Assembly (NCBI GenBank): GCA_030148915.1
Contig: JASBSN010000078.1
Location: forward strand, 1-43,470
Direction of reading: 5' to 3'
DNA: 43,470 nt
From: Thiogranum sp.
GTDB taxonomy: Bacteria; Pseudomonadota; Gammaproteobacteria; DSM-19610
Under the pieces are notes generated by a model, which saw only the letters and a list, made by a program, of their open reading frames with translations, was not told where the DNA came from and made no database searches. A program made the position numbers and the translations under genes. This document shows, piece by piece, positions 28,288 to 30,802 of this stretch. The stretch's first letter is position 1; every line of letters begins with the position of its first letter.

Positions 28288-28674
28288 GTGGCCGCACGCT
28301 ATAACTTGAAGATTCTGGCGGATTTCGCCTCGGCGCACACCTTGCGGGACTACCCGGGTGCCTGTGCGCGCATGCACGGACATAACTGGAAGGTGGAGAC
28401 CGAGGTGATCGCCACACAACTGGACGCCGCGGGCATGGGGGTGGATTTCAAGGTCATCAAGCAGGCCACGCGGGCGATCGCCGAGCGGCTCGATCACCGT
28501 TATCTGAATGACCTGGAACCCTTTACCGAGATCAACCCGACGGCGGAGAACATCGCCGCCTATTTTTATCGCGAACTCTCGGCGCAGCTGAACAACGAAC
28601 ACATCAGCGTGCACGCGGTCACACTCTGGGAGACTGAACGCGCCTGTGTGCGTTATGTTGAGGACGAGTTATGA
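28288..28674 (+). CDS. queD: 6-Carboxy-5,6,7,8-tetrahydropterin synthase
   Basis: QueD converts dihydroneopterin triphosphate to 6-carboxytetrahydropterin, the second step from GTP to preQ0 and queuosine (family knowledge). The 128-residue length fits. The catalytic Cys and zinc His are in [12 protein letters not shown]; other family landmarks are FASAHTL (first zinc His), [15 protein letters not shown] and [11 protein letters not shown]. The start is a GTG at 28288 with AGGA 6 nt upstream. It overlaps folE2 by 4 nt (ATGA). Grouping with folE2 puts the first two queuosine steps in one unit. Confidence 0.94.
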
Positions 28675-29510
28675 GCAAGCAGAGCGCCACCACCGCCAGC
28701 GCGGTAAGCCCCGGCATCGCCGATGTACAGGGCAGTGCCGACACCCGTCGCATCGCTATCGACAAAGTCGGGATCAAGGACATCCGTCATCCGGTGCGCG
28801 TCAAAGACCGCGCCGAAGGCGAACAGCACACCATCGCCACCTTCAATATGTACGTGAACCTGCCGCATAATTTCAAAGGCACGCACATGTCGCGGTTTGT
28901 CGAGATCCTCAACCTGCACGAACGCGAAATCAGCGTCGAATCGTTCAAGGAAATGCTGGGCGAGATGACCGAGCGCCTGGAGGCCGAAGCCGGCCACATC
29001 GAAATGAGCTTTCCCTATTTCGTCAACAAAACCGCGCCGGTATCCGGCGTACAGAGCCTGTTGGACTATGAAGTTTCGTTCATCGGCGAAGTGCGCGAGG
29101 GTAAGCCGCAGATGCAGATCAAGATCATTGTCCCGGTCACCAGTCTGTGCCCCTGCTCGAAAAAAATCTCCGCGCGCGGCGCGCACAATCAGCGCTCGCA
29201 CGTGACCTTGACCGCCACCACCTGCGGCTTCATCTGGATCGAGGAGTTGATTGAACTGGTCGAGTCGCAGGCCTCCAGTGAGCTCTACGGTCTGCTCAAG
29301 CGCCCGGATGAGAAATACGTTACCGAAAGAGCTTACGACAATCCCAAATTCGTCGAGGACATGGTGCGCGACATTGCCGCCTCGCTGAACGCCGACGAGC
29401 GTATCAGCGCCTATGTGGTGGAGTCGGAAAACTTTGAATCCATCCACAATCATTCGGCCTATGCGCTGATCCAGCGCGATAAGCGAACTGATCCGGTAGT
29501 GACGGGTTAG
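28671..29510 (+). CDS. folE2: GTP cyclohydrolase FolE2 (type IB)
   Basis: FolE2 (GCYH-IB) converts GTP to dihydroneopterin triphosphate for folate and queuosine synthesis and does not depend strictly on zinc, unlike FolE (family knowledge). The 279-residue protein shows [12 protein letters not shown], the [10 protein letters not shown] block, and the metal/catalytic cysteine segment [20 protein letters not shown]. The ATG at 28671 overlaps the queD stop, so they are translationally coupled. FolE2 is often under Zur control, but I see no Zur-like site here; the unit seems to run on from dxs or start at the inverted repeat at 28259. A hairpin pair follows in the convergent gap. Confidence 0.95.
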
Positions 29511-29556
29511 TAGGCTGAGTGGTTATTCGATAGAGTCTGCCTCCCGCTGCCACCAG

Positions 29557-29649
29557 GCTCCGGGCTCCGGCCGGGCAGTCCCTCGAGGGTGCATGTGCCG
29601 CTCGCGGCGCCCTAAGCCCGCGAGGGACTGCCCGGCCGGAGCCCGGAGC
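29557..29649. repeat. Long hairpin 1 with conserved central element
   Basis: Two perfectly complementary 29-nt arms (29557-29585 and 29621-29649) enclose a 35-nt centre. Each arm contains a doubled GCTCCGG unit (as read on the left arm). The centre contains the 31-nt element at 29588-29618, which begins GGTGCATGTGCCG and ends CCCTAAGCC and can itself fold (GCCG-CTCG-CGGC). The same element occurs in hairpin 2. It starts 47 nt after folE2 and could also end transcription from both sides of this convergent gap, although there is no T-tract. Confidence 0.9.
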
Positions 29650-29698
29650 TGAACACCCGGAAGTATAAGAGATCGGATAAAATCTGCATCCGCGGTGC

Positions 29699-29787
29699 AA
29701 GCGGGTTTCGCCCGGTGCAAGGTTTTTGGTGCATGTGCCGCTCGCGGCACCCTAAGCCAAAAACCTTGCGCCGGGCGAAACCCGCTT
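29699..29787. repeat. Long hairpin 2: same centre, different stem
   Basis: Arms of 31 nt (29699-29729 and 29757-29787) pair with one mismatch, which would be a G-U pair in RNA. The 31-nt element at 29728-29758 differs from that of hairpin 1 by one base (A for G), yet the arms (starting AAGCGGGTTTCGCCCGG) are unrelated to the hairpin 1 arms. The rest of the gap (29511-29556, 29650-29698, 29788-29899) holds no gene that I can support. Confidence 0.9.
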
Positions 29788-29899
29788 TGAGTGATGGGCG
29801 CCTACGAGTTTGGTCATTCCGTCCCGGACTCATCGTCCAGCGCGGACAGCTGCGGAGCCGGACCGAAGCTGACGTGTCCTTGGGCAGCCCGCGCCTTTG

Positions 29900-30802
29900 T
29901 CAGCAACACTGGCTTCTGTCCAGCCGGCAGTCGCACGCTTCATCCTGGTTTTCCAACTGTACTGTCGCGTGCTCAATGTCGAAACGCTCGTGCAGTTGGT
30001 GCTGCAAATCGCTCAGAAACACGTTGTCCAACGCCCTGTCGCTGACGACCAGATGCACGGTAAGCGCGCTCTCCGTGGTGCTCAGTGCCCAGATATGCAA
30101 ATCGTGAATGCGGCTGACATTGTCCAGGCCGAGCAGATAGTCGCGCACCGCGCCGATATCGATGTCTTCCGGCACCGCATCCATAGCGAGGTTGACCGAA
30201 TCGCGCAACAGGCTCCAGGTACCGAAAAGAATCACCACAACGATCGCCAGACTGATCACCGGATCAATCCACAACCAGCCCTTGAACAGGATGAGAACAC
30301 CGGCGATCACCACCCCGAGCGACACGCCGGCGTCCGCCGCCATGTGCAAAAAGGCGCTGCGCAGGTTCAGGTCGTGCTTCTGACCGGAGACAAAGAGCAG
30401 CGCCGTGGCGGTGTTGATGACCACACCGATGGCCGCCACCACGATCACCGTCATGCCCTCTACCGGGCGCGGATCGAGGAAGCGCCCCAGCGCTTCCCAG
30501 GCGATGCCGCCAAGGGCCACCAGCAACAGCACGGCGCCGATGAGCGAGGCCATGATGGTGGCCTTGCGGAAACCATAGGTGCGTTTTTCGGTCGCCGCCC
30601 GGGTGGCCAAAATGCTCGCGCCCCAGGCGAGCAGCAGACTGACGACGTCGCTGAGGTTGTGCCCGGCGTCGGCGATCAGCGCCAGGGATTGGGCGACGAG
30701 GCCGTAACCGGCCTCGATCAGCACGAAAACGATATTCAGCGCCACGCCGATGGCAAAGGCCCGATTGTAATTACCGGCGCTGTGGCTGTGGTCGTGTGCC
30801 AT
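29900..30802 (-). CDS. Cation diffusion facilitator (ZitB/CzcD-like zinc exporter)
   Basis: A 300-residue inner-membrane exporter of the CDF family that swaps Zn2+ (or a related ion) for protons. It has a His-containing N-terminus (MAHDHSHSAGNYNRAF), six membrane segments, and the transport-site motifs in ALIADAGHNLSD (segment II, HxxxD) and HMAADAGVSLG (segment V, HxxxD type), which match the zinc HD-HD arrangement of ZitB/CzcD (family knowledge). The C-terminal cytoplasmic domain contains VSRIHDLHIWAL. It ends in an unusual Cys-rich tail (CDCRLDRSQCC) that could bind metal. It follows bcp by 9 nt on the same strand, so peroxide defence and metal export look cotranscribed. Confidence 0.92.
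   Translation of the reverse strand: MAHDHSHSAGNYNRAFAIGVALNIVFVLIEAGYGLVAQSLALIADAGHNLSDVVSLLLAWGASILATRAATEKRTYGFRKATIMASLIGAVLLLVALGGIAWEALGRFLDPRPVEGMTVIVVAAIGVVINTATALLFVSGQKHDLNLRSAFLHMAADAGVSLGVVIAGVLILFKGWLWIDPVISLAIVVVILFGTWSLLRDSVNLAMDAVPEDIDIGAVRDYLLGLDNVSRIHDLHIWALSTTESALTVHLVVSDRALDNVFLSDLQHQLHERFDIEHATVQLENQDEACDCRLDRSQCC

Follow-up and report, generated by a model that had tools for sequence, protein, structure and literature searches.

The gap between folE2 and a convergent cation-efflux gene contains two long hairpins with almost the same centre on stems that look different, and we asked what kind of element would hold its loop constant while its arms change. The initial annotation of the window (the whole 43,470-nucleotide stretch of DNA that was analysed) had called the two stems unrelated and proposed that an element had inserted and its neighbouring sequence had then been copied in inverted orientation, for example by template switching.

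Two hairpins between folE2 and a cation-efflux gene

An inverted-repeat search of the window confirmed both hairpins, the first with 33-nt arms at 29557-29589/29617-29649 (97%) and the second with 31-nt arms at 29699-29729/29757-29787 (97%), and it returned no other long arms-plus-loop hairpin in the 43 kb. The 31-nt centres at 29588-29618 and 29728-29758 differ at a single base, as annotated; at up to 3 mismatches the chance expectation for this centre in the window is 0.00, and 0/100 shuffles reach two copies. Two details needed adjustment: the perfect 29-nt arms described for the first hairpin are there, with one mismatch just outside them, 2 nt from the centre, and the single G-U-type mismatch of the second proves to be a T.G pair, some 11-12 bp away from the centre. 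Folded as RNA, the 261-nt region reaches -190 kcal/mol (z = -15). The features of the locus are as follows, where A and B are the two stem families described in the next section.

28671..29510, + strand: folE2 (type IB GTP cyclohydrolase), to the left of the element and convergent with the gene that follows
29550..29557, + strand: B outer flank CCACCAGG, conserved just beyond the stem (conservation profile); left end of the element
29557..29649, + strand: B-type hairpin, 31-bp stem with one mismatch 2 nt from the centre
29588..29618, + strand: 31-nt conserved tip (core), in the + orientation that is canonical for a B hairpin
29595..29610, + strand: P2, the helix inside the first core (GTGCCG CTCG CGGCGC), which varies and covaries among copies
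29650..29698, + strand: variable spacer that retains traces of two conserved motifs, CCACCGGAAGT (29654-29664) and CGGTGCAGGCGG (29693 onwards)
29699..29787, + strand: A-type hairpin with a stem of 29 bp and a closing GG/CC; a single T.G mismatch
29728..29758, + strand: 31-nt core in the reverse of the canonical A orientation; it repeats the first core directly, not in inverted form
29735..29750, + strand: P2 helix inside the second core (GTGCCG CTCG CGGCAC)
29788..29800, + strand: A outer flank, consensus CGCTTTANG (conservation profile); right end of the element
29900..30802, - strand: CDF cation-efflux transporter gene, right neighbour (function from the initial annotation and sequence inspection)

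The host is a gammaproteobacterium, and the nearest named match of its FolE2 is from a Thiohalobacter MAG (85% identical). Genus relatives that we examined have folE2 without the element. In two relatives, G001 and G004 (L179, L180), a second, more distant FolE2-like match is interrupted by a single in-frame stop, TAG in one and TGA in the other. Between the element and the CDF gene lie about 100 extra nt (29830-29880) with GGAGCCGGACCGAAGC, which resembles the B inner flank; this is possibly a decayed second element.

A dispersed family with a folded tip and two stem types

A genome search for the centre, which the initial annotation had called for, revealed a genome-wide repeat: the draft genome (G000, 3.22 Mb) has 59 copies with no more than 3 mismatches, and the reversed control has none. 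Across searches we recovered 59-63 cores with no control hits; a covariance model gave 76 hits, representing about 70 distinct hairpins, and a looser pattern also raised the count. With genomic context taken from codon-model gene calls, no predicted gene contained a hairpin (0/67), and all copies are intergenic.

The core is a helix-flanked internal loop, GG[YGCMT]-P2-[CCTnAAG]CC. Because P2 varies in length and sequence with its pairing kept (GTGCCGC..GCGGCAC, GTGCG..CGCAC, GCG..CGC), the invariant part consists of the internal-loop nucleotides, TGCAT and, opposite it, CCTAAG; P2 positions 9/22 and 10/21 covary. The conserved sequence is the folded tip of a hairpin, and the stem sequence is nearly free provided that the arms pair.

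Nearly every interior copy of the core forms the tip of a 24-37 bp stem and so has the predicted inverted flanks, as long, private repeats. The stems are not unrelated, as had been thought, since they sort into two loose families, about 30% diverged: A, to which the second window hairpin belongs (AAGCGGGTTTC.nCCGGTnCnGGGTTTTT-core-AAAAACC...), and B, to which the first belongs (CCAGAGGTtCaGCCGGG.AG.CCCTCGAT-core-ATCGAGG...). Relative to the B consensus, the first window stem has changed from GAGGTTCAG to GGGCTCCG, both arms together. The full element of about 240 nt reads CCACCAGGCCCAGAGG, B hairpin, CTCGGACCGAAGCCACCGGAAGT, variable spacer, CGGCTTCGGTGCAGGCGG, A hairpin, CGCTTTA, and beyond the stems conservation fades over 10-20 nt. 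As the A and B families recur, the stems did not arise by inverted copying of random neighbouring sequence. Shared stems had been named as the outcome that would make these ordinary repeats, and that outcome applies in part.

Among 18 close pairs, the cores face each other in 11, lie in the same orientation in 6 and stand back to back (divergent) in 1. The copy in the window belongs to the six same-orientation pairs. Its B core lies in the canonical direction, whereas its A core is flipped with respect to its flanks, with the inner motif on the left and the outer motif on the right. Five such core inversions can be read directly from the flanks. Two copies (C7:3516 and C118:10401) are probable hybrids that combine the outer arm of type A with that of type B, one at each side, and look like deletions between two directly oriented cores; core inversion would set up the direct cores for such deletions. 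In a few copies, parts of the outer stem fall outside both families (C51:93648, with 37 bp, and the contig-end pair C106/C53). We saw no autonomous copy with a gene between its two hairpins, and no pair spaced 0.5-5 kb apart.

The draft assembly breaks at many hairpins, and a few contig-end copies (C25, C26, C37, C135) are unreliable. Breaks lie within a few hundred bases of hairpins on C2, C17, C25, C26, C31, C32, C36, C37 and C53, and further hairpin-proximal breaks occur on C55, C56, C75, C87, C97, C106, C130 and C135. Some contig ends carry palindromes of at least 60 bp (C26:112, C37:118) that are probably assembly fold-backs. Two other repeats are distinct from the family. One is a long hairpin with 36-nt arms and a 35-nt loop containing ggtcagagtaaaatttt (L200 15286-15392; G000:C25 near 75 kb); the other is a short REP-like repeat, ATTCCGGC..GCCGGAAT, which is dispersed in the genome (L188 12296-12364, L274 near 1730) and adjoins one core copy.

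The element is present in at least five genomes of the same genus, which vary in completeness: G001, G004 and G014 have the same loop, G005 has one variant copy, and G011 has twelve, while none was found in G008, G002 and G009. One species holds about 70 copies, and most of its sister species hold a few at most. The twelve copies of G011 (on L329, L334, L337, L339, L342, L344, L346, L348, L350 and L352) form a family of their own, a younger parallel expansion in which the core is shifted (CTGCGCCT...CCTGAAGCC) and the stems are nearly uniform. Outside the genus, we found no member with the covariance model in 273 other genomes, a search of limited sensitivity in which few candidates were scored per genome, or with the core pattern in 368 other genomes. 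The long-P2 core had no match in about 85,000 bacterial and archaeal genomes (a set from which its own genome was possibly left out), none in the viral contigs searched, and one short spurious match in the plasmids searched. The literature on conserved-loop, variable-stem repeats yielded nothing matching.

The closest relative lacks the element at the window site. In G004 the folE2-CDF gap measures about 24 nt, and several other G004 sites are also empty, although the relatives' intergenic DNA is too diverged to align, so that neither the ends of the element nor a target-site duplication can be placed there. Occupied gaps are enriched for convergent gene pairs (18/32, against 56/341 gaps genome-wide; odds ratio 6.5, p = 1.7e-6).

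Correlated change of the two arms

Left arms mismatch their own right arms at 2.5% (A) or 3.8% (B) of positions, compared with 30.9% (A) or 34.1% (B) against the right arms of other copies, while cores differ between copies by only 8-11%. Paired positions covary (0.41/0.44, against 0.11/0.14 in shuffles; 0/500). We counted 271 cells with paired Watson-Crick changes, of which 149 are transversion-type and 122 transition-type; set against these are 15 G.T, 6 A.C and 20 other mismatches. Because the 149 transversion-type changes cannot pass through G.U, most of the paired changes had no stepwise G.U route. Syntenic hairpins tell the same story at single sites. Between G004 and G014 there are four stem changes, all compensated, and a core that differs at most within the P2 loop. 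The G000 hairpin at C77:7422 and its G004 counterpart have different stem sequences, replaced with pairing intact. The constancy of the core at these two orthologous sites suggests site-level constraint, which is unexpected for dead repeats.

Template switching between inverted repeats is reported to homogenise arms and to invert spacers (PMC8604942), as well as to create and maintain stems (PMC8794818). The paired arm changes and the inverted cores of this family fit replication template switching, since both of its reported signatures, as in quasipalindrome mutation, are present. The initial annotation had raised such a mechanism, which is still the best explanation for arm identity, and we consider that the arms are probably kept identical by template switching during replication. 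Quasipalindrome template switching has been described for single inverted repeats in genes and RNA genes, whereas here it would act on about 70 dispersed copies of one family.

The main competing view is that the hairpins are structured RNAs of transcript 3' ends, selected in the host as an RNase III substrate, an exonuclease barrier or a factor-binding tip, with pairing maintained by selection alone. P1 and P2 covary around an invariant internal loop, as expected of a structured RNA; the fold is very stable; and the preference for convergent gaps and the unchanged core at two orthologous sites point the same way. On the core strand, G.T exceeds A.C by 15:6 in the stems and 11:3 in P2 (26:9 in total, from copies that are not independent), a mild excess that suggests some selection on the folded core strand beyond DNA-level correction. 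However, G.U or mismatched intermediates are almost absent beside 271 paired and mostly transversion-type changes. Few intermediates would also be expected under strong selection for perfect pairing, but their near-absence fits DNA-level copying better than a structured-RNA reading. The stems lack a following T-tract, some loci have inverted their cores with no apparent loss, and an abundance of about 70 copies in one species beside none to few in most sisters is not what a host-selected RNA would lead one to expect. Rfam returned only spurious miRNA-type matches, far below gathering scores. We regard selection on RNA alone as unlikely, if still worth serious consideration. Intrinsic terminators were considered separately and rejected on inspection, as the stems run into CTGCACC, CTTTA, CGGACC or CTGGG and no T-run.

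Relation to known repeats and alternative origins

REPINs are doublets of inverted palindromes with variable spacers (PMC3116915). The organisation of our element is like that of such a REP doublet (REPIN/BIME): the palindromes are short, intergenic and joined as inverted doublets (11/18 close pairs) around diverged spacers, with compensatory changes, tens of copies, species-specific expansions and decayed singlets, and the two alternating types, A and B, may be compared with Y and Z of E. coli BIMEs. There are also differences. Conservation here sits at the tip of a 27-bp stem, whereas in REPIN/BIME it is a 20-40 nt REP beside a GTAG tag that is conserved; the stems are long, near-perfect and private to each copy; and the core inverts inside its stem.

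A true REPIN/BIME mobilised by the genome's own RAYT (Y1 transposase) was also considered, since the genome does encode one RAYT-type gene (Y1_Tnp; C100:9269-9595, L067; 246-256 aa), of the kind that the initial annotation had suggested looking for. This gene is the only one in the genome, and its 12.6-kb contig has no element hairpin. No Y1 gene was found in the element carriers G011 (12 copies), G004 and G014, whereas many relatives have a Y1 gene and no elements. At the palindrome foot, GTAG occurs in 0/52 and CGTC in 1/52 (any tag in at most 1/52). The Y1 transposase was rejected as mobiliser on linkage and distribution, and because both the tag and RAYT linkage or co-occurrence are lacking we did not file the element as a REPIN; that it is one we consider quite improbable, even though it may spread like one.

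Other known classes offer partial likenesses. Like our element, NEMIS/Correia elements and other small palindromic MITEs are small, dispersed and intergenic, form long hairpins and are possible RNase III substrates; our element differs in that no shared terminal inverted repeat was detected at its bounds and that the centre is what is conserved. It also resembles the palindrome-associated elements derived from IS200/IS605, which are small and carry a folded single-strand tip at each end. In those, however, the stems are short and imperfect and a cleavage motif is linked to the transposase; we found neither feature here.

Three further origins were weighed. The insertion of a 31-nt element followed by inverted copying of the local flank, so that each stem is new local sequence, would account for stems that are private to each copy and for the outer stems that leave both families (C51:93648 and the C106/C53 pair). 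It is largely refuted by the membership of most stems in A or B and by their conserved outer flanks, and at C51 the flanking sequence is likewise absent from relatives and gives no evidence of a local origin; we rate it very unlikely. Orthologous gaps had been expected to reveal the ancestral arm, but because the relatives' sites are empty, which arm was copied is not shown, as for the outer stem of C51:93648. A site-specific recombinase acting on the core, by inversion within a hairpin and deletion between direct cores, could produce the inverted cores and the A/B hybrids; inverted arms of 29 bp, together with direct repeats of 31 bp at a distance of 140 bp, are enough for template switching and slippage to do the same, and a recombinase seems highly improbable. 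That the family is an assembly artefact is scarcely credible: some contig-end copies are indeed perfect palindromes of at least 60 bp, but the majority are in contig interiors and group into coherent families, and species that were assembled separately share the motif.

On balance, then, we think it somewhat more likely than not that this is a lineage-restricted, dispersed, bipartite palindromic element of about 240 nt, with template-switched arms, REPIN-like non-autonomous spread and accumulation in 3' intergenic space. The family with its two stem types, the covariation, the core inversions, the confinement to one genus among the genomes searched and the empty orthologous sites are direct observations. 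Its arms would be kept complementary mainly by inter-arm template switching at replication, and the same process would flip the loop; in the window the A core is inverted, which leaves the two cores as a direct repeat. The doublet would spread non-autonomously, its tip recognised as a folded strand by a putative trans-acting protein, and would accumulate in 3' intergenic space, mostly in convergent gaps, where its cost to the host would be lowest and where the 3' ends of transcripts may be influenced by it. A more tentative proposal, possible rather than probable, is that the folded tip, a YGCMT/CCTnAAG internal loop flanked by two helices free to evolve, is the recognition structure of a previously undescribed, non-RAYT single-strand dispersal or regulatory system, with stems co-evolving by template switching at dozens of loci.

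With about 70 copies whose stems are private yet almost perfectly mirrored, the family is a natural replicate set for the maintenance of palindromes. Selection on RNA and template-switch copying predict different intermediates, and the pattern here favours copying. Covariation alone is normally taken as proof of a functional RNA, for which this family serves as both a caution and a test case, and it appears to represent a REPIN-like expansion that proceeds without the usual RAYT tag and gene.
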